Below are positions 13,724 to 23,679 of a DNA stretch of 64,000 nt, piece after piece; within the stretch, counting starts at the first letter, position 1, and each line of letters starts with the position of its first letter. The stretch lies in NCBI GenBank assembly GCA_016866385.1, contig VGMU01000008.1, forward strand, positions 1 through 64,000, written 5' to 3'. The notes beneath the pieces are model-generated. The model was not told where the DNA came from. It saw nothing but the letters and a program-made list of their open reading frames with translations, and did no database searches. Both the position numbers and the translations under genes were made by a program. The DNA is from Bacteroidota bacterium (GTDB lineage: Bacteria; Bacteroidota; Bacteroidia; Cytophagales; Cyclobacteriaceae).

Positions 13724-16420
13724 GTGAAAATTTGGAAAAGTCTTTTGGTTCTTCTTTTTCTAGCTCTCGTGGCGTGGGGAACTTACGAAGCATATCAAAA
13801 GTATGCTTATAACCGAAGTATAAATAGTCTGGAACTTATCTCAAGTGATGCAATTTTTGTTTTTGAGACCAAGCAGGCCGATCAAACATGGAAGGAAGTT
13901 CTAAGTCATCCTCTTTGGCTTAGTTTATCCCAATTTCCAGCATTCCAAACTTTTCAACAGCATTGGATTGCTTTGGACAGTCTATCTGGCGAAGAAGACT
14001 TTGTCTCGAAAACCCTTAGGAATAAACACGTCACCATCTCCTATCATGCCGAGGGAACAGATGATTTCAGCCTACTTTACACCATCAACTTTGGGTCAGC
14101 ATCGCCCTTGGAATTTTTGGAAAGCCTAAAGCCTAAAGTTCCTAAGACCTCTAGACTGCAGTCCCGAACTTACAGTGAACAAGAAATTATCGATGTCATT
14201 GGCCCCAGCAATAGCATTCAATGGAGCATTACCTCGCTAAACAATGTCTTGTTAATTTCTTCCTCCTCTTTTGCCATAGAAGAGGCTATTCGATTTTACC
14301 TAAGCGACAGTCCCAATCGGCTTTCCGAAAAAATAATTGATCCCCTAAGTCAAGATTCTGGATTGGGCCGCTTGATTATTTCCTCCAAGGGCATAGCAAA
14401 ATTACTGAAAGGCGTTAGCCAGTCCCAGGAAACCATGGCTATCCAAGAACTCGAATCCTTTGATCATTACCTTGCACTTACTCTTTATCTGGAAGAAAAT
14501 CAGCTTCTTTTTAAAGGCCCCATGCAGTGGCAAGAAGAAGTTCAATTTTTGCCTTCGGTACAAGCACAGCTTTCGGATTTTGAAAGCCTGATTTCTACGA
14601 GATCCCTGTCCATCACCCAAATCAACCTTAAGGATGGCTACGAGACCCAAAAACTTAAAAATTCGGCCTTCGTTCCTATCTCTACCGTAAGTGGGGAAAT
14701 TCAATCCCGGCTGATAGATAGAGGTTTTTTTGATTATTTATCGGGAGAACAGTATTTATTGAGCTTAGAACCTCTGGAAGGAGGGCAAGAAAATCTTGCC
14801 CTCCTTGTTAAATCAAGCCAGATTGACCAAGCTTGGAATTTCTTACAGGAATACCGAGATACTACCGAATTCAATCCCGTAGAAAGCTACTTAGAAAATG
14901 AAATTCTATTTTTCCCGGAAGAAAACTTTCCTGCGCACCTTTTTAATGGAAAATTTGCCGGATTTCAACAGACTTATATCAGCAGAATTGGAGACATCCT
15001 CCTGATGAGTAATTCTGCAGCTGGGATGAAAGTACTCTTGGATGACCATTTTCAAGGAGAAACTTGGGACAAAAAAGCTCCTGGGCCAGATCAAAAGCTC
15101 CTTTTACCTAGCTCAGGATATAGCAAAATCATTCTTTTAAATAAGTTATGGCCCACTTGGACACAACTTACTAATCCTACTTGGAGTACTTTTTTGCAGA
15201 AATATGCCGCTGCGCTTCAATCCTTCACTACACTTTCTTTTCGAATCAACCAATCTACCCTTGGCCCTGAAGCTTCCCTCAGTTTGAGATACAATGCTCA
15301 ATCACCAGGGGACTCTTTGCAAAAAAAATCTTTCGATCTTATACCTGCCAAAGAAGTGAGTTTTTCCAAACTCCTAGGATATGGCCCCAAGGCTATTATA
15401 AATTTCAATGATGGGAGTGAAGATCTCGTCCTTCAAGATCTTTCCAACACCTTGTACCTAATCAATTCTGCAGGCGAACAAGTTTTTGATCAAGTATTAG
15501 ATGGTCCGATAGTTTCAGAAGCTTTTCAAATTGATTTTTATAAAAATGGCAAACTTCAGCTTTTGGTCGCCACAGCCAATTACCTCTACGGTATCGACAG
15601 ACTAGGCGAATCCCTTCCTGGATTTCCTGTTAAACTTCAAGGAGAAAAAATAACGCACCTGAATCTTTTAGATTACGATCAAAACCGAGAGTATCGTTAC
15701 TTTATTTCTACCGAACAAGGAACCCTTTGGCTTTTGGATAAAGGCGGTAAGCCTTTGGAGGGATGGAATCCCTTGGCATTGGGAGAAACAAGTATTGGAC
15801 CTCCTTTTCATGTGCGAGTTTCTGGTAAAGGGGACTTCATGGTTGCCCTCGGTAGTTCGGGGAAAATTCATTTGTTTAACAGACGGGGGGAAATCCAAGC
15901 AGGATCTCCGGTAGTTCTGAAAGAAAAACTTCGGAGTCCCTTAGTAATCAATAAATCTACTACTCCCCCAACTCTTTATGCCATAAGCGACGGAGGAGAG
16001 GTATCCACCATTACTTTTTCTGGAGAGACACTGAAAACATCTCAATTCTTAAAAACCAATAGAGACGATAGATTTACTTACTTGCCTGATCAAAAAGGAA
16101 CTTCTTTTTTGATTCTTTTGCAGCAATTCAATAAAATCCAATTCCTTTCAGAGCAAGAAAAAAGCCTTTTAACTGTACCCATTTCTGGAGGAAAAGCCAG
16201 GGTGGGGTATTTTAATTTTGGGCCCGATCGCAAGCTCATTGCCGTTACGGATTTGGAAAAAAAGATGGGATATCTCTATGATCTCAGTGGAAACTTGGTG
16301 ATTTCTTCTCCCATGCCAAGCGAAGGTGAAATCCAACTCAGTCATAGAGCTGAATTGAGCCAATATTTTATACGCACTCGGGTAGGTACTACAGTGTATG
16401 AGTTTGTGATTCCTGATTAG
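13724..16420 (+). CDS. membrane-anchored protein with beta-propeller-like C-terminal half, unknown function
   Basis: I do not recognise a named gene. The 898-residue product starts at a GTG; no in-frame ATG near the N-terminus precedes the hydrophobic segment LLVLLFLALVAWG (residues 7-19), which is a signal anchor or uncleaved signal. Residues about 30-540 look like a DUF3352-type region with repeated FVFE and ALTLYLEEN strands. From about 560 on, units such as LYLINSAGEQVF, LYGIDRLGESLPGFP, LWLLDKGGKPLEGW and IHLFNRRGEIQAGSP recur at 40-60 residue spacing, as in PQQ-like or VCBS-like propeller repeats. It lies just behind the mdh terminator with hardly any room for a promoter of its own. Confidence 0.7.
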   Translation: MKIWKSLLVLLFLALVAWGTYEAYQKYAYNRSINSLELISSDAIFVFETKQADQTWKEVLSHPLWLSLSQFPAFQTFQQHWIALDSLSGEEDFVSKTLRNKHVTISYHAEGTDDFSLLYTINFGSASPLEFLESLKPKVPKTSRLQSRTYSEQEIIDVIGPSNSIQWSITSLNNVLLISSSSFAIEEAIRFYLSDSPNRLSEKIIDPLSQDSGLGRLIISSKGIAKLLKGVSQSQETMAIQELESFDHYLALTLYLEENQLLFKGPMQWQEEVQFLPSVQAQLSDFESLISTRSLSITQINLKDGYETQKLKNSAFVPISTVSGEIQSRLIDRGFFDYLSGEQYLLSLEPLEGGQENLALLVKSSQIDQAWNFLQEYRDTTEFNPVESYLENEILFFPEENFPAHLFNGKFAGFQQTYISRIGDILLMSNSAAGMKVLLDDHFQGETWDKKAPGPDQKLLLPSSGYSKIILLNKLWPTWTQLTNPTWSTFLQKYAAALQSFTTLSFRINQSTLGPEASLSLRYNAQSPGDSLQKKSFDLIPAKEVSFSKLLGYGPKAIINFNDGSEDLVLQDLSNTLYLINSAGEQVFDQVLDGPIVSEAFQIDFYKNGKLQLLVATANYLYGIDRLGESLPGFPVKLQGEKITHLNLLDYDQNREYRYFISTEQGTLWLLDKGGKPLEGWNPLALGETSIGPPFHVRVSGKGDFMVALGSSGKIHLFNRRGEIQAGSPVVLKEKLRSPLVINKSTTPPTLYAISDGGEVSTITFSGETLKTSQFLKTNRDDRFTYLPDQKGTSFLILLQQFNKIQFLSEQEKSLLTVPISGGKARVGYFNFGPDRKLIAVTDLEKKMGYLYDLSGNLVISSPMPSEGEIQLSHRAELSQYFIRTRVGTTVYEFVIPD

Positions 16421-16468: not shown

Positions 16469-18076
16469 TTATTTCACCTGGAAATAACTTCGTTGAAGAG
16501 TTGCTTTTTCTCCTTCATCCACCATTTGCCAAAACAAAAATATCCCTTCCAATTGAGAAAGTTGTGTGCTTACCTCAGGTGATTTTTTTTCCCAAGCCAA
16601 GACCGTTCTCCAATCGGGAATCCTATCCTGAGATGAAGGTAAAGTAAACTGCTTGCTAGGGAGATCTATCCAGGGATGAAGTCCCTGATAATCAAAAAAA
16701 CGTGCAGCAGGGGCTAGAGGAAATAAACCAAAATTATTGGAATAACTGCTAAAGCTGATCACTCCTGGATAGGTCCGGTCGTTGAGGTAAAATTCACGAT
16801 TGAGGATCTCCAAGGTATTTAATAATTTGGGATTGAAGGAAGCCAAGAGGTCTGAATCAAAGACAGGCATGGCATCTACCAAAATCAATGGTTTGGCATC
16901 AAATACACTTTTATTTGCTTCATTGAGCAAGCGAAAGGTTTTCTTTTTATCCCGAATACGTACGGAAACACTTGGTACATACTCTTTCAAGATGGTTTCT
17001 ATGTCCTCAAATCGGGTATAGTCATCCAAATCGTAGGTATAGTCAGCCACAAAACCAGTAACCACTTGTAAGGAATCTTTTTGGATTTCTTGTAGGTAAT
17101 ATGTTTGGATGAGAGAAGCCTTTAGCAGAGGTTGGAGCAGGGGTAAATCCTCTTGACTAAGAGCTAATTCTGGAAATGAAAAATCTGACCTAAAGGTTGT
17201 TTGAATGACCGGAGCGAGAACCTCCAAGCCTTGCATTTCCTCACCATTTTCCAATTGAAGAATAATACGATCCCAATGCCGCATCCCTCCTAAGTCAAAT
17301 ACCAGCCTACCTGTAGCATCTGCATGATCTGTAAACAACACACTTTTTTCTCCGTGTACGGAAAGAAAATAAGTCAAGGTGGTGTCCAGACTTGTCACCT
17401 TTGCCTGAATCTGATGTCCAAATAGTTCGGGCAAGAGAGGTTCACTTTTTAAGGATGTATAGAGCTGAGTGGAGGTCCACTGTTTATGTTCCTCATTCAA
17501 AAAAGGGTTGGCGATAGAAATTCCAGATGCTAGTACCTGCTTCCCGGATGATGGATTCAAAGAAAATTGCACTTGGCTTCCTTTGCTGTATACTTTTTCT
17601 GGAATCAAGGGGATACGATCAGCTTGCTGAGCGTATTTGGGAGGTATACGAGGATTGATGATGGTAACCAGCTGTTGGGCCATGCCCAAATCCATATCCA
17701 GGTGAGGACTAATTCGGGTATATACCCGCAAGAGGTAATGGTCAGAAGGGATTTGGTCGGAAAGGGACAGAAAATTCACTGATTTTCCTTCTCGTATGGG
17801 TACTTTAATATGGGCTATAGAATTTGAATTTCTATCTAGCAATTCGGCATAAAGAATTTGAGAAGAGGAAGGGACTGAGCCAAGAGCCACCTCAGCATCA
17901 AACCATAGTTTTTCACCTGTGAAATAGAGGGTTTTTGGTGTATGAAAACTTACCTTTTCCTTTGGCAAATTTTGCCCTTGAGCCAAAGATGAATTTACGA
18001 TACCAAAAAGAAAAGTGAACCCAAAAATCAGGGTAGCCCAGGAGAATTTTTGTTCCAAGATTATTCTTGTTTTCAT
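16469..18076 (-). CDS. exported MG2/plug-like protein, last gene of the TonB/DUF4249 operon
   Basis: The 535-residue protein has a signal peptide (about 1-32). Its N-terminal part (KVSFHTPKTLYFTGEKLWFDAEV) resembles the macroglobulin MG2 domain found in many Bacteroidota exported proteins. The region 345-430, with LILVDAMPVFDSDLLASFNP and LNTLEILNREFYL, resembles a TonB-dependent receptor plug but no barrel follows. Relatives I know are longer. It starts one base after the DUF4249 stop, so it is co-translated with it and probably acts in the same outer-membrane system. Function unknown. Confidence 0.7.
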   Translation of the reverse strand: MKTRIILEQKFSWATLIFGFTFLFGIVNSSLAQGQNLPKEKVSFHTPKTLYFTGEKLWFDAEVALGSVPSSSQILYAELLDRNSNSIAHIKVPIREGKSVNFLSLSDQIPSDHYLLRVYTRISPHLDMDLGMAQQLVTIINPRIPPKYAQQADRIPLIPEKVYSKGSQVQFSLNPSSGKQVLASGISIANPFLNEEHKQWTSTQLYTSLKSEPLLPELFGHQIQAKVTSLDTTLTYFLSVHGEKSVLFTDHADATGRLVFDLGGMRHWDRIILQLENGEEMQGLEVLAPVIQTTFRSDFSFPELALSQEDLPLLQPLLKASLIQTYYLQEIQKDSLQVVTGFVADYTYDLDDYTRFEDIETILKEYVPSVSVRIRDKKKTFRLLNEANKSVFDAKPLILVDAMPVFDSDLLASFNPKLLNTLEILNREFYLNDRTYPGVISFSSYSNNFGLFPLAPAARFFDYQGLHPWIDLPSKQFTLPSSQDRIPDWRTVLAWEKKSPEVSTQLSQLEGIFLFWQMVDEGEKATLQRSYFQVK

Positions 18077-18077
18077 C

Positions 18078-19226
18078 TTATTTGTCTACCCAAAAGGCAG
18101 GTCTAATTTTGGAAGCATACAAGGTGCAGTCGGTACATCTCCGTGCGGAAGGATAGTACCCCACGATGGTTGTTCCTACCATCAGGGGTCTTGCTGGCAA
18201 TACCGCCCCACTCCCAAAAATCGTTTGGTAATCTTTTTTTAATACTGCCTCTTCACCTATGACACAATCGTTGAATTTTGGATCTAGGTAATTCCAAGGA
18301 CTTACCTCTGTAAGGTCAATAAATATTCTTCTCTGGCGAATGATCCCCAAACTTACTTGTCCAATTACAGGATTTTTTCCTTCATCTAAGCTGTAGATAT
18401 TGCCTCCAATCAAAGAAGGAAGTGGACTAAATATGGACCCAATATCCTCGGTATTCTTTTTTAAAACTTCCCAAAAAGGCACATCTTCGGAAGAAAGGCC
18501 TTTTTGGGAAATCAAAATGCTGTAACGTTCCATGATCCGTTCGTCGCCCAAGGGAATCTCTGTTATGGTCTGTTGAAATACCAATTGATCCTGGAAGCGT
18601 GAGCTTGTTTCCAACAAAATATTTGGGCTGGGCTGGGTTTTAAAGCAGAGGGCATTTTGTTCAGCTTCTGTTCTATCTCTGACGTCTTTCAATGCAGGCA
18701 CGTAGATGTAGGGTGACCTGATTCTAGGTCTATAAATCCACGTCTCCTCAAAGGTCCACAAAAAATCATCTGCATTGGGGGTACCCTGAGTAGTCACAAA
18801 AACCTCTACCCCTTCCTGATCCTTTTTAAAACCTGAACTAAGAATTTCAGGGGTAATGATAGGTTTTAAGCTTTTTGAAAGGTAGCGCTCCCCAGATTTA
18901 AGCACAATTTCCAAGGTATAGATTTTACTCTCATCAATGTTGCTTTCAAAAAGATAGACCCCTGCCCCTTTTTCCAGCAAAGAATAGGATTGTCCAGCAG
19001 GTCCTTTTAAGGTAACCTTGGCTCCCAATTCAGGCTGCATGGTCTGTGTAGCAGAAAGGGGTACCATGCGGCTAAGCTTCAATTCACTTTTTAGCCCTTC
19101 GGTATCCAAATACCCCTCTACTACCAGAAGTCGAAGTTCGGTCGAAGGAAGCTCCGGGTCATAGGGTGTTCGACAACCCATCAAGATTCCTAGGAGAGCA
19201 ATCACCAAGAGTGTAGTGTATCTCAT
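18078..19226 (-). CDS. DUF4249 family outer-membrane lipoprotein
   Basis: The 382-residue protein has a lipoprotein signal with lipobox LMGC, and the DUF4249 pattern: an early VVEGYLDTEG segment, Ig-like strands, and a C-terminal CxxC (CTDCTL) followed by RPAFW. DUF4249 proteins typically accompany TonB-dependent receptors as surface partners, in the position SusD has in sugar systems. I chose the ATG at 19226; one codon earlier there is only a TTG. The start overlaps the receptor stop by one base (TGATG), so translation is coupled. Confidence 0.88.
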   Translation of the reverse strand: MRYTTLLVIALLGILMGCRTPYDPELPSTELRLLVVEGYLDTEGLKSELKLSRMVPLSATQTMQPELGAKVTLKGPAGQSYSLLEKGAGVYLFESNIDESKIYTLEIVLKSGERYLSKSLKPIITPEILSSGFKKDQEGVEVFVTTQGTPNADDFLWTFEETWIYRPRIRSPYIYVPALKDVRDRTEAEQNALCFKTQPSPNILLETSSRFQDQLVFQQTITEIPLGDERIMERYSILISQKGLSSEDVPFWEVLKKNTEDIGSIFSPLPSLIGGNIYSLDEGKNPVIGQVSLGIIRQRRIFIDLTEVSPWNYLDPKFNDCVIGEEAVLKKDYQTIFGSGAVLPARPLMVGTTIVGYYPSARRCTDCTLYASKIRPAFWVDK

Positions 19227-21958
19227 CAAAATCTAAAATTATATGTGATAAAGGGAATGGGTTCGGCAAATATTGCCAATTGATACCCTTTCAACTTTCC
19301 TCCTTCAGGGACATAGTACACCGAGTAGGCATTGTCTCTTCCCAAGATATTGTATATCCCAAAAGACCAAGAAGCATGAGCCAATTTGGCAATCTTATGA
19401 TTGCCTTCTAGATTCACCGAAAAATCCAATCTAAAGTAATCTGGCACCCTGAAGGCATTTCGTTCTGAGAAATAAACGCGCTCTGATCCTGCATAGTCAA
19501 ATTTGGCTATAGGTAAGGTCACTGGCCTTCCGGTACTGTATTTGCCAGCTAGAGTCACATTGAGCCTCTTGCTCAGCTCTAGGTTACTGACTAGGTTGGC
19601 ATTATGTGGCTGGTCAAAATTACTGGGGTACCACTTGGAACCATTGATTTGTTCTTTTCTCTCGCTAGGGTCTGTTTGCAACAAGGACCTACTGCAGGTA
19701 TACGCTAAGGAACCGTTGAGTTTTCCTCTGGTTTTTTTCATGTAGAGCTCTAGTCCATAGGCCTTTCCCTGTGTGACCAAGACGTCTTGTTCTATGCGTT
19801 GGTTGAGCACAATACTTGCTCCAGAGCGATAGTCTAGCAAGCGCTCCATAGTCCTGTAGTAGAGTTCAGCCGAAAACTCTAACGCCCCTTGTTGGGAACT
19901 TGTGACATATCCTAGGGCATATTGAATTCCAAGTTGAGGGGCCAAGAAAGAATCGCTCAACTTCCAGGTGTCGGTAGGTGTGACTACAGAGGAATTGCTC
20001 AGCAAATGGATGTTTTGTCTCATGGAATTAATCCCTGCTTTGATGGATGAATTTCTAGAAATCGCATAGCGCCCAGATAGCCGCAACTCGGGCCCGTGGT
20101 AGGTCTGCACATTTTCACCTGCATCGTAATTTTGCTCTCCTGTAATATTTTCACTCAAATAGGGTTCGTCTTTCGCATAAATAGGGAGCACTTGCGGGCC
20201 TAGGAAGGTATAGAGGTTGTATCTCAAACCCGCACTAAGAGACCATTTTTCGTTGATCTCTAGTTCATCTCCCAAGAAAATTGACCAATCCATGGCATGT
20301 TCTTGTGCTAATTCGTCGGGGATTACCCCGCTTGATTCCCCAAAGGGCAGTAGCCTACCTGGATTGAGTTGGTAGCGAATGCCATGTACCCCATAGGTCA
20401 ACAGGTGTTTTTCTCCTTTCTCTTGTCGGAAATTTGCCTTAAGAAATTGCTGCTTGAGATCAAATTGATAGCGGTAAGCATTCAGGGGATTGTCTTCTCC
20501 TTCTACGTTAAAGGCATAGGCATCTTGCCCTACAGAGAAGGTCGCTTCCAAGTCATCCGAAAAATAATGGGTCCAAGAAATCGCTACATTTTTATTGGAA
20601 TAACTGTATACGGTATCTGGATCAAATTGAAACTCATCTTTGCTGTAGTACCCGGATACTCGAAGTGCATCTTTTTCCCCGAGTTGATGGGTGACGGTTC
20701 CATTAAAATCTCCAAAAGATGCCCTACTAGCTCCTAAGTCGATCTTATCTGCTAAAAAGTCAAGTAACCAATCCGAATACGTCAAGCGTGATCCCAGGAC
20801 AAAGGTAGTGTTTTGTCCTATGGGGCCTTCTAAGCTAAAGCGACTCGTCATGGGCCCAATCCCCCCAGATCCTCCGATTTTATCTGTTCTCCCTTTTTTG
20901 GGAGTTACTTGCAAGACGGAAGATAACCTCCCTCCTAAGTTTGAAGGGATACCTGATTTGTACAGTTCCACTCCCTGTACCATATCTGAATTGATGGCTG
21001 AAAAAAATCCAAATAAGTGTGAGGGATTAAACAAGGTATTTTGGTCCAGAAGGATGAGGTTTTGATCGGCGGCACCTCCACGGACATTGAAACCAACAGA
21101 AGCTTCCCCGGCAGTATTTACTCCTGGCATGGTCAGAAGTCCTTTGATGATATCTACTTCCCCCATGACTGCAGGTAATCTTCTCATTTCTTGCACCGAT
21201 AGGGACTGTACCCCCATTTCTGGACGAGAGACATTGGTCAATGCCCCAGAGCGCACCACCACCTCACTAAGAGAAAAAATCCCCTCACCTATATTAAGTT
21301 CTAAAACGGCATCCCCAAGTACATCCAAGAGTCGTTGCTCGGTATATCCCCCTATGTTTTGAATATACAGGGTCGTGTATCCTTTAGGCAAAACCAGATC
21401 AAACTCACCTTCTTTATTGGTGATGGTTTGTCGCATGGACTCCTTTTCGTAGACGATGGCCCCTTCAATGGCTTGATTATTTTCCAAGCTTTTTACTACT
21501 CCAGAAAGTTTAGCTTCGGTACCAAGACCTGGCCTGCCAATCACGTACCGTCTATTTCTTACGAATTCGTCTTGAGGAGATGCGCTATTCAAAGCGGATG
21601 AGGTGCTTGCTTGAAAATAATTAGGCAAGAATTCTACAGGAAATTTTCCGCCTTTAAGAATATACACCTCTTTTTGAGCAGAAATGGAAAAATTCAGATC
21701 CGTTTTTAAGAAAATAATTCCCAAGACATCCTCTAATTTGTCTCCATTCGCTTGAAGATTTACGGTCAATTGTGAAACATCCTCCGAATGGTAAATAAAT
21801 CTATAGGGGGTTTCCTTCTCTATCAATTCGGCAAATCGTTGGAAAGAAATACCTGCGAACAATCCAGTAACTTCTTTATCCTGCTGTCCAAAAGCAGGGA
21901 AGCAGGCCATGAAAGCCAGGAAAAAAGCTAAAAGGATGCGGTGGTATTTAAGGGACAT
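19226..21958 (-). CDS. STN-domain TonB-dependent receptor
   Basis: The 910-residue outer-membrane protein starts with a signal peptide (1-24), then a secretin/TonB N-terminal (STN) domain at about 30-105, a carboxypeptidase-regulatory-like domain at about 150-225, a plug domain (MRRLPAVMGEVDIIK, MPGV, FNVRGGAADQNLILLDQ) at about 255-370, and a beta-barrel ending in aromatic Phe (TYNFRF). It should import or bind an unknown ligand with energy from TonB. STN domains usually signal to a FecR-like anti-sigma factor, but none is in the neighbourhood. It overlaps both operon neighbours by one base. Confidence 0.93.
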   Translation of the reverse strand: MSLKYHRILLAFFLAFMACFPAFGQQDKEVTGLFAGISFQRFAELIEKETPYRFIYHSEDVSQLTVNLQANGDKLEDVLGIIFLKTDLNFSISAQKEVYILKGGKFPVEFLPNYFQASTSSALNSASPQDEFVRNRRYVIGRPGLGTEAKLSGVVKSLENNQAIEGAIVYEKESMRQTITNKEGEFDLVLPKGYTTLYIQNIGGYTEQRLLDVLGDAVLELNIGEGIFSLSEVVVRSGALTNVSRPEMGVQSLSVQEMRRLPAVMGEVDIIKGLLTMPGVNTAGEASVGFNVRGGAADQNLILLDQNTLFNPSHLFGFFSAINSDMVQGVELYKSGIPSNLGGRLSSVLQVTPKKGRTDKIGGSGGIGPMTSRFSLEGPIGQNTTFVLGSRLTYSDWLLDFLADKIDLGASRASFGDFNGTVTHQLGEKDALRVSGYYSKDEFQFDPDTVYSYSNKNVAISWTHYFSDDLEATFSVGQDAYAFNVEGEDNPLNAYRYQFDLKQQFLKANFRQEKGEKHLLTYGVHGIRYQLNPGRLLPFGESSGVIPDELAQEHAMDWSIFLGDELEINEKWSLSAGLRYNLYTFLGPQVLPIYAKDEPYLSENITGEQNYDAGENVQTYHGPELRLSGRYAISRNSSIKAGINSMRQNIHLLSNSSVVTPTDTWKLSDSFLAPQLGIQYALGYVTSSQQGALEFSAELYYRTMERLLDYRSGASIVLNQRIEQDVLVTQGKAYGLELYMKKTRGKLNGSLAYTCSRSLLQTDPSERKEQINGSKWYPSNFDQPHNANLVSNLELSKRLNVTLAGKYSTGRPVTLPIAKFDYAGSERVYFSERNAFRVPDYFRLDFSVNLEGNHKIAKLAHASWSFGIYNILGRDNAYSVYYVPEGGKLKGYQLAIFAEPIPFITYNFRF

Positions 21959-22662
21959 TATTTTGTGCTAGAATAGGATACTATAAATTTCAAAAAGGCA
22001 GGGGGTGATTTCTTGAAAGACAAGCCTTTTGATTTCACTTCTTTCTTCCCTATTTTTTGGTCGAGGCCTAAAACAACATAGGCATCCGAGGCCTTTTTTA
22101 TAGGATGGAAGCCCCCCTCCTGGTAAAGAAAATAATCTACTTTTTCGAGGTATTCTTCTTGAAACCTAGAGATTTCTCGAAGGGCTTTGGTGGTCTTGTA
22201 GGGCTTGGAAAGCGCTATGGTTTTTTTCTCTTCCAGCACCTGATAGATCCCATTTCCATGGTGTGGGTAGCTTTCATTTCCTGAGAAAAAACGAAAGTGG
22301 TCTCCATTTCCAAGAACAAACCCATCTATTTTTTCAGGCTTGATCAAGATCTTCTGGTTGAATATGGGATGAAAAGTAAGTAACTGGTCCTGGTAACTAT
22401 CGTAAAGCAAGGGAACATCGGGATAAGTAATGCCATTGATTCGGAGCGTTCCTCTCTCAAATTGCCTAGAGATATGGTAAGGGTCACCTTTGATGAAAAG
22501 GGAGGGCTCGGCATATTGCCCACCAGTGATGAGTTCCTGAAAATAAGGAATCTCCTCTCTATAGGCACTCAAGTAGGGCAAATCAGCACGAACTACCTGG
22601 GCAAAATCCAAGACAGGTAGAAAAAGGAAGGTGCTAAAGAATAAAAATTGTATTTTTCGCAT
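21958..22662 (-). CDS. exported protein of unknown function, first gene of the TonB/DUF4249 operon
   Basis: The 234-residue protein has a signal peptide (about 1-21, ending DFAQ). The remainder is rich in beta strands and aromatic residues, with LLYDSYQDQLLTFHP and a C-terminal basic stretch GKKEVKSKGLSFKKSPP. I do not recognise the family. Its TAA overlaps the ATG of the TonB receptor (TAATG), so the four genes 22662 to 16469 form one coupled unit. It may be a periplasmic or outer-membrane accessory of the receptor. Confidence 0.75.
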   Translation of the reverse strand: MRKIQFLFFSTFLFLPVLDFAQVVRADLPYLSAYREEIPYFQELITGGQYAEPSLFIKGDPYHISRQFERGTLRINGITYPDVPLLYDSYQDQLLTFHPIFNQKILIKPEKIDGFVLGNGDHFRFFSGNESYPHHGNGIYQVLEEKKTIALSKPYKTTKALREISRFQEEYLEKVDYFLYQEGGFHPIKKASDAYVVLGLDQKIGKKEVKSKGLSFKKSPPAFLKFIVSYSSTK

Positions 22663-22758
22663 ACTGAAAAATACGATTGAAAATTCTTATAATTCTTATT
22701 TATTCAGAATATGTTTAAATGGTCAATGGCTAGGTTAAACGGAATAGAATCTACTACG

Positions 22759-23679
22759 ATGCACTTAAGAAGACAGTTTCTCAAAACCCTTGCTGTAGCT
22801 CCACTGGCAGTTACCTCCATTCCCTTGGCTCAGGCAAATCCTATAAAAAAAAGGGACACGCAATTTAAATTTTCCTTAAACACCAGCACCATCAGGGGCC
22901 AAAAGTTATCCCTGCCTCAGATGATTGACCTTGCGGCAAGAGCCGGATATGACGGCATTGAACCCTGGATGATGGAGATAGAGGCTTATCAAAAGGAGGG
23001 ATATAGCATAGCTTCCCTCAAAAAGCGGATTCGAGATGCGGGGATAGAACTGGTAGATTGCATAGGATTTCCGACTTGGTTGGCACAAGATGAGACGAAG
23101 AGTAAGCAGGGGTTTGAGCAAATGGAAAAAGAAATGGGGCTCTTGGCAGAATTGGGCTGTACCCGAGTCGCTGCACCTGCGATTGGAGCGGAGGCCCCGT
23201 TGGATTTGCTCCAAGCAGGAGAAAAATACAAGCGCTTGTTGACATTAGGCAGGAAAACTGGAGTCATGCCCCAATTGGAATTTTGGGGTGCATTTCCCGC
23301 TTTCTATCATTTGGCGCAAGCCATGGCCGTGGCAGCAGCTGCGGACGATGCAGATGCGAAAATTTTAGCGGACGTTTACCACTTATTTCGCGGGGGTTCG
23401 GGATTTGAAGGATTAGAATTGCTAGATGGGCAAGCCATAGACATATTTCATCTCAATGATTTCCCTAAAGACATTCCTAGAACCAGCCAACAGGACAAGG
23501 ATAGGGTCTTTCCTGGGGATGGGGGTGCACCTATGGAGGAACTTGCAAATCGCTTACGAGACAAGGGAGGGGAAATCATTTTATCCCTAGAACTTTTTAA
23601 TCCAAGCTATTACCAAATGGATGCTGATTATGTAGTAAAAACGGGACTAGAAAAAATGAAGCTTTTCTTTACGTCTTAA
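22759..23679 (+). CDS. sugar phosphate isomerase/epimerase family protein, Tat-type signal
   Basis: The 306-residue protein is a xylose-isomerase-like TIM barrel: GYDGIEPWMMEIEAY, a DCIGFPTWLAQDE segment, QLEFWG, ILADVYHLFRGG, FHLNDFP and LSLELFNPSYY supply the Glu, Asp and His ligands typical of the metal site in this superfamily. I chose the ATG at 22759 because it places RRQFLKTLA directly at the N-terminus, a twin-arginine signal for export of the folded enzyme; an ATG 16 codons earlier would bury it. The substrate is unknown; inosose or keto-sugar isomerases are relatives. It is read divergently from the TonB operon. Confidence 0.83.
   Translation: MHLRRQFLKTLAVAPLAVTSIPLAQANPIKKRDTQFKFSLNTSTIRGQKLSLPQMIDLAARAGYDGIEPWMMEIEAYQKEGYSIASLKKRIRDAGIELVDCIGFPTWLAQDETKSKQGFEQMEKEMGLLAELGCTRVAAPAIGAEAPLDLLQAGEKYKRLLTLGRKTGVMPQLEFWGAFPAFYHLAQAMAVAAAADDADAKILADVYHLFRGGSGFEGLELLDGQAIDIFHLNDFPKDIPRTSQQDKDRVFPGDGGAPMEELANRLRDKGGEIILSLELFNPSYYQMDADYVVKTGLEKMKLFFTS

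Follow-up and report, generated by a model that had tools for sequence, protein, structure and literature searches.

A TonB/DUF4249 outer-membrane operon of Bacteroidota in which a macroglobulin-plug protein is a candidate partner of an STN receptor in place of FecR

The DNA analysed here (the window) consists of the first 64,000 nucleotides of contig VGMU01000008.1 from a Bacteroidota bacterium of the family Cyclobacteriaceae (assembly GCA_016866385.1). Its minus strand carries at 16469-22662 four coupled genes, P1 to P4, which encode an exported protein, a TonB-dependent receptor, a DUF4249 lipoprotein and a second exported protein of macroglobulin and plug character (Table 1). All open reading frames (ORFs) lie where an earlier note, made from the sequence letters, had placed them, and the translational coupling that it claimed was found at every junction. 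P1 and P2 overlap by one base in the TAATG at 21958, P2 and P3 do so in a TGATG provided that P3 starts at the ATG at 19226 (the ORF caller had chosen the TTG at 19229), and a gap of 1 bp (18077) separates P3 from P4. Such tight junctions recur in relatives. Counted from the first start codon in 40 loci, P1 and P2 overlap or lie at most 20 bp apart in 39, P2 and P3 likewise in 39, and P3 and P4 in 34. A scan for promoters and terminators gave a signal no better than that of shuffled sequences.

Table 1. Positions in the window of the four genes, their domains and the two neighbouring genes
Feature	Position	Strand	Basis or remark
P1, 234-aa exported protein	21958..22662	-	type I signal peptide, Q at cleavage site
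P2, 910-aa TonB-dependent receptor (STN, carboxypeptidase-regulatory N-terminal extension (NTE), plug, barrel)	19226..21958	-	Pfam
STN-like signalling domain of P2, about residues 28-104	21647..21877	-	Pfam STN, E 0.058
CarbopepD_reg_2 (NTE) of P2, residues 151-235	21254..21508	-	Pfam
Plug domain of P2	20930..21163	-	Pfam
Beta-barrel match of P2	19346..20734	-	Pfam
P3, DUF4249 lipoprotein	18078..19226	-	ATG start 19226; TTG 19229 possible
C-terminal CxxC of P3 (C364, C367)	18126..18137	-	invariant in 45 aligned relatives
P4, 535-aa exported macroglobulin-plug protein without barrel	16469..18076	-	family Pfam, model, fold matches
MG2-like domain of P4, about residues 39-140	17657..17962	-	2p9r_B: Z 8.9, root-mean-square deviation (rmsd) 2.7, 95 aligned
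Plug-like domain of P4, about residues 345-445	16742..17044	-	Plug in 5/41 members, best E 5.7e-4
C-terminal MG-like segment of P4, about residues 490-535	16472..16609	-	weak; fold alignments
Upstream neighbour, TIM-barrel sugar-isomerase-like	22711-23679	+	AP_endonuc_2 (Pfam)
Downstream neighbour, 898-aa protein	13724-16420	+	no Pfam or NCBIfam match

The plug, the barrel and the NTE of P2 are assigned by Pfam, and the NTE is present in all 40 relatives. The STN domain, on account of which the earlier note spoke of an STN-TonB receptor, is a weak match under the cut-off in the window protein, and it is recognised in 24 of the 40 relatives at E 0.1 or better (best 5.4e-07). At the same threshold 22 of the 40 relatives match FecR_C. 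Within the NTE, residues 232-235 (EVVV) resemble a TonB box when compared with that of Bt1763 in the available part of PMC7782687. The STN domain stands ahead of the NTE both in the window P2 (21254-21877) and in the SusC of locus L152; in SusCs as described in the available part of the same paper the NTE comes first.

For P3, DUF4249 is the sole Pfam family matched (E 1.3e-29), and a PDB sequence search returned no match to DUF4249. The lipobox cysteine is as invariant as the CxxC among the 45 aligned relatives, and the description of P3 as a DUF4249 lipoprotein with a C-terminal CxxC is borne out on both counts. Six tandem DUF4249 genes accompany one receptor and P4 in L143 and L144, and four tandem copies occur in L215 and L209; several DUF4249 lipoproteins seem to share one receptor.

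P1 matches no Pfam or NCBIfam family, and the Pfam matches among its relatives are each confined to one single member. Its AlphaFold model (mean predicted local distance difference test score, pLDDT, 91.1) has a beta-rich body with C-terminal helices. Foldseek found no PDB match for it at E 0.001 or better, a second structure comparison against the PDB reached at best Z 2.8, a lack of match that does not establish a new fold, and a PDB sequence search gave one match only (E 0.23). The first gene was thus rightly said to have no recognised family. Weak P1 relatives in L239, L240, L242, L245, L248 and L249 lie near a gene of about 1,400 aa, often also near one of about 310 aa, and have no receptor operon; judged by such relatives, P1 appears to belong to a wider exported family.

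The window P4 itself has no Pfam match. Among 41 family members, however, MG2 is matched in 17 and Plug in five at E 0.1 or better, and the predicted model of the window protein (mean pLDDT 88.8) resembles macroglobulins. It matches complement C3 with a Foldseek E of 1.3e-8, but with a whole-chain TM-score of 0.18, and the whole-chain TM-scores on the model are low (0.15-0.23) against the listed alpha-2-macroglobulin (A2M) and complement chains. The best alignment to such chains reaches Z 11.7 (rmsd 4.1) over 188 residues, and isolated human MG2 aligns as given in Table 1. The plug-like part weakly matches a SusC homolog in a profile search (E 0.031). The C-terminal segment has no clear PDB match, and PF00207 was seen weakly in two of 28 C-terminal fragments, at best with E 0.033 and among other matches of similar level. 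No barrel was among the families listed as matches, and the secondary structure of the model leaves no room for one. By its model and the family matches, P4 has a complement/macroglobulin fold with a plug-like segment and without a barrel; the phrase 'MG2/plug-like without a barrel' from the earlier note is true of the family, its window member being blank in Pfam. P4 proteins (n=95) fall into two length classes, 516-625 and 734-896 aa. A signature pattern that was tried for them performed poorly (15/95) and was dropped.

Given the domain borders of A2M and the position of its bait region, the P4 alignments extend beyond the bait-region point, so that the plug-like domain may occupy the place of the bait region. 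The resemblance in fold and the MG2 domain would also suit a macroglobulin-type role of P4 as a guard or a trap for proteases, which would shield the periplasm while the receptor opens. We consider this very unlikely, as the plug-like segment precedes the last MG-like part and the thioester is missing: the motif CxEQ occurs in one of 95 P4 proteins and the window P4 has no cysteine at all. The motif count and the lack of cysteine rule out P4 as a thioester A2M. Some A2Ms do lack the thioester.

The proposal that the four genes make up one system could have failed if the two outer proteins did not accompany the receptor pair in other genomes. Of 118 genomes of the family, 60 have P1 and 103 have P4 (threshold E 0.01 for both), and all 118 have DUF4249; the count for P4 includes other MG2 or plug proteins that were matched in part. 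Counting all 76 P1 matches and part of the P4 matches, at least 65 of the 76 are followed on their own strand by a listed P4 within 9 kb, and these belong to 53 of the 60 P1-bearing genomes. The 11 without a listed P4 comprise six at contig ends, the complete L134, L138 with only a piece of P2, the solitary relatives L139 and L100, and the rearranged L137, where P4-like genes lie only upstream of P1. Among the 40 loci that were read, mostly picked for having both P1 and P4, 39 show the order P1-P2-P3-P4 with one or two copies of P3, and in L063 P2 is split over two ORFs.

A stricter survey covered 16 contiguous, hand-picked genomes with 103 DUF4249 loci (same strand, within 8 kb; 44 P4 matches of about 66 bits and up were used, second segments of one ORF excluded). 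Both P1 and P4 accompany DUF4249 in 12 of these loci, P4 without P1 in 10, P1 without P4 in none and neither in 81; in this survey P1 thus occurs in operons only together with P4. All 12 P1 matches of at least 80 bits adjoin DUF4249, in loci that also have P4, compared with 0 of the 34 weaker relatives, and 17 of the 19 P4 matches of at least 190 bits do so. In a sample of the phylum, 53 of 296 genomes have P1-type matches, and 40 of these loci were read. Wherever P1 reaches at least 97 bits among them (21 loci outside the family, L214-L233 and L252, with five other family labels), the locus consists of P1-P2(STN)-P3-P4 with one to four P3 copies, and none of the 19 with P1 at 86 bits or less shows the operon. 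In the ORF sets P2 comes next after 106 of 109 P1 ORFs of at least 80 bits and after none of the 24 weaker ones.

From the 81 of 103 loci with neither gene nearby one could argue that P1 and P4 stand beside the DUF4249/receptor pair by chance. We give this practically no credence, and the linkage counts contradict it: the same gene set recurs amid differing flanks in many genera and other families, and a P1 of at least 80 bits that lacks an adjoining receptor is rare (the three cases are L124, at a contig end, L234 and L235). The pairwise distances of the four proteins across 41 operons correlate at 0.69-0.83, values unmatched in 300 permutations, as shared inheritance would give. Because P1 and P4 accompany the pair of receptor and DUF4249 protein across genera and families, the data support the view of the four genes as one conserved outer-membrane uptake system. 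Gene order varies to some extent, P4 preceding P3 in L126, L130, L143, L144, L147 and L209. L081 and L225 hold two tandem P1-P2-P3-P4 operons, the second in L225 incomplete at the edge of the stretch taken.

STN domains are usually read as marks of sigma/anti-sigma signalling. A Pfam scan of the genes flanking the window operon found no sigma or anti-sigma gene, the neighbours being a TIM-barrel protein and one without Pfam match, and the lack of such a pair to which the earlier note had drawn attention is real and informative. For comparison, 61 loci were read: 50 drawn at random from the 81 without P4, the 10 that have P4 without P1, and L153 from the window genome. Ten gave no receptor of at least 690 aa (in nine DUF4249 stands alone, and in L159 the receptor is split), and the remaining 51 yielded 54 receptors. 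Of these, 38 are short (755-824 aa) and have no STN domain, and neither P4 nor FecR goes with any of them. The other 16 are extended by STN (871-905 aa; L176 and L187 were assigned by length only). Ten stand with P4 and none of these with FecR, five have an ECF sigma factor and FecR upstream and none of these P4, and one (L169) has neither. The association of STN with P4 is strong (Fisher p 3.3e-7 for the 54 receptors), and P4 and FecR are mutually exclusive in the loci read.

Pfam confirmed FecR in all three of the five sigma/FecR loci that were scanned (L176, L185, L187); it detected no FecR in the gene next upstream in six P4 loci (L207-L211, L213) and in L169, and in the other four P4 loci the upstream gene lies on the opposite strand. 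Moreover, FecR lies upstream of 0 of 72 P4- or P1-linked receptors in the other loci read from the family, 64 of which scored STN and P4 and 61 of these also P1, and gene maps show none within the 21 out-of-family operons. The second DUF4249 locus of the window genome, L153, consists of an 800-aa receptor, 37% identical to P2 over the shared part, and a 353-aa DUF4249 protein, with no STN, P1 or P4.

These associations suggest that the operon encodes a TonB/DUF4249 uptake system and that P4, usually together with P1, replaces FecR there as the periplasmic partner of the STN receptor, a reading to which we give an even chance. Several observations weigh against it. The table of 54 receptors is a case-control comparison, because 10 of its loci were selected for P4 and its P4-less side draws on 50 of the 81 such loci, and related genomes cannot be counted as independent cases; its FecR and ECF calls were made with our own profiles built from few sequences. 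L169 has an STN receptor with neither partner, the split receptor of L159, omitted from the table, has STN without P4, and L098 has a sigma-FecR pair just downstream of P4. FecR, furthermore, is matched somewhere in 39 of the 42 operon-bearing genomes. Finally, in a mirror-tree (distance-matrix) test over 82 operons, corrected for the barrel and with 200 permutations, the residual correlation between STN and P4 was 0.02, a value reached by 49 of the 200, and that between NTE and P4 was 0.36 (STN-P1 0.15, STN-P3 0.26).

The last two results favour a possible, if doubtful, alternative, in which the genes do form one uptake system but the STN domain is incidental, being a leftover or working with a FecR encoded elsewhere, and P4 and P1 act for example as periplasmic cargo acceptors at the NTE/plug side. 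The lower conservation of STN in P2 (0.30, versus 0.43 for NTE, 0.63 for plug and 0.52 for barrel) points the same way. Indeed, as NTE tracks P4 and STN does not, the NTE may be at least as good a candidate for the docking site if P4 docks on the periplasmic side of P2. It is harder to reconcile with an incidental STN domain that all 10 P4-linked receptors have it whereas the 38 receptors without STN lack both P4 and FecR. In addition, no FecR was matched in three of the 42 operon genomes, G308 (100% complete), G021 (99%) and G073 (91%). These keep complete P4 operons (L254, L256, L064), and the STN of their P2 is recognised with E 1.5e-28, 1.5e-35 and 2.7e-31, in the order of the genomes named, by our own STN profile, which was trained on sequences that include that of G021 and not the other two. 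Since FecR is not matched there, STN in these genomes serves no FecR as far as the search can see. The window genome has one FecR match, on another contig in a sigma-FecR-SusC-SusD cluster.

A crude pattern of a signal peptide followed by Q was found in 37 of 40 P1 relatives, 39 of 42 P2 and 35 of 40 P4, in agreement with the Q rule of Bacteroidota as set out in the available part of PMC5837995. As the relatives mostly carry such type I signals, P1 and P4 may be periplasmic. The earlier note had envisaged a surface machine with two parts beyond the Sus scheme; one system with P1 and P4 as its non-Sus parts stands, and a placement at the surface is doubtful in view of these signals.

It is nonetheless conceivable, although unlikely, that P1 and P4 are exported past the outer membrane to form an extracellular capture complex with DUF4249. 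According to the same part of PMC5837995 the Q pattern is also seen on proteins sent beyond the periplasm, and the CxxC tail of DUF4249 proteins accompanies P1. The tail is present in 105 of 106 DUF4249 genes in 83 P1-bearing operons, in nine of 25 in 13 entries scored as lacking P1 (one of them, L063 with its split P2, does have P1) and in four of the 39 next to short receptors. L150 and L205 denote one locus, and loci entered twice were otherwise kept, for instance L130 and L254, probably copies of one genome. P1 and this tail may be linked, and shared ancestry could also account for the pattern. Against an extracellular complex speak the type I rather than lipoprotein signals of most P1 and P4 relatives, the near absence of a type IX secretion tail in P4 (Por_Secre_tail in one of 41 members, E 0.018) and the correlation of P4 with a domain of P2 that is periplasmic in known receptors.

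The replacement of FecR by P4 is proposed on the basis of gene association, namely the conserved linkage, the domain make-up and the P4/FecR exclusion observed, from which we infer physical contact, a periplasmic location and the direction of transport. P3 would bind the ligand together with P2, TonB would open P2 and the ligand would pass into the periplasm. There P4 would take the place of FecR at the N-terminal domains of P2, as a macroglobulin-type scaffold with a plug-like domain, and P1 would be an additional subunit. The operon encodes no sigma factor, so the coupling would not run through transcription but would be mechanical or concerned with cargo: the N-terminal domains of P2 would be held, cargo received or the channel gated. 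The more specific idea that P4 represents a novel type of STN partner, a soluble protein of complement character that bears a borrowed receptor plug and replaces FecR, so that STN drives a periplasmic step with P1 as second subunit, is put forward tentatively, as possible rather than probable. If it is true, an STN receptor domain would drive a mechanical or cargo-handling step in the periplasm and not gene expression. Widespread STN receptors are tied to a macroglobulin-plug protein instead of FecR, some of them in genomes without a FecR match, and this makes a non-transcriptional role of STN directly testable. Moreover, DUF4249 gains two defined partners in P1 and P4, and the make-up of P4 suggests that a receptor plug has been reused outside a barrel.

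The TIM-barrel gene next to the window operon is divergent to P1 and starts 48 bp away. AP_endonuc_2 was matched in 10 of the 120 flanking proteins scanned in relatives (120 of 140 taken; 25 of the 172 families listed), which probably reflects synteny. In many close relatives the operon is also flanked by a gene of about 900 aa, like the downstream neighbour in the window by size alone. A sigma gene lies downstream of P4 in L091, an ECF sigma factor and FecR lie on the other strand beyond P4 in L217, and an ECF gene lies one gene further downstream in L226 and L230. The window genome (G000) comprises 2.65 Mb in 136 contigs at 91.7% completeness; genomes of the same genus (G082, G226, G308) measure 3.9-4.8 Mb, and it is possibly reduced. 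The closest named relative of its P1, at 86% identity, is from an Algoriphagus metagenome-assembled genome, and the host is an Algoriphagus-like bacterium.

No description of the four-gene system was found in the open-access literature (subscription papers lie mostly outside this coverage), nor anything relevant there on combinations of MG2, TonB and plug, and the open-access papers on PF14054 concerned, by title, Plasmodium or enzyme profiles only; under its own name DUF4249 turned up there in one paper. The closest parallel is BT2172-BT2173, where a gene for a TonB-dependent transporter lies beside a DUF4249 gene and disruption of either has similar consequences, according to the available part of PMC11003636. 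The window shares this adjacency and adds P1, P4 and the STN domain, and that part of the paper mentions neither P1 nor P4; a plain pair of the BT2172-BT2173 type is present in the window genome as well, at L153. With SusCD systems, as far as the available part of PMC7782687 describes them, the operon has in common a TonB-dependent barrel with an NTE and a lipoprotein partner. P2, however, scores 29.7 bits against a cut-off of 368.25 for SusC/RagA (TIGR04056), P3 is a DUF4249 protein and not SusD-like, and there are two extra exported proteins; membership of the SusCD class is thereby ruled out. The available text of that paper also has STN domains acting in anti-sigma signalling and carried by SusCs from ECF-controlled loci. 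An STN-type domain ahead of the receptor plug is likewise a feature of FecA/FecR/FecI and PupB/PupR in the accessible part of PMC9249621, whereas the window operon has no sigma or FecR gene and three of the 42 carrier genomes have no FecR match. P4 resembles alpha-2-macroglobulin and complement C3-C5 in its MG2 domain and in the fold over the 188 aligned residues, and differs from them in having no thioester motif and a plug-like domain before the C-terminal MG-like segment. Of a TonB-dependent receptor it has the plug-like segment only, without the 22-strand barrel.

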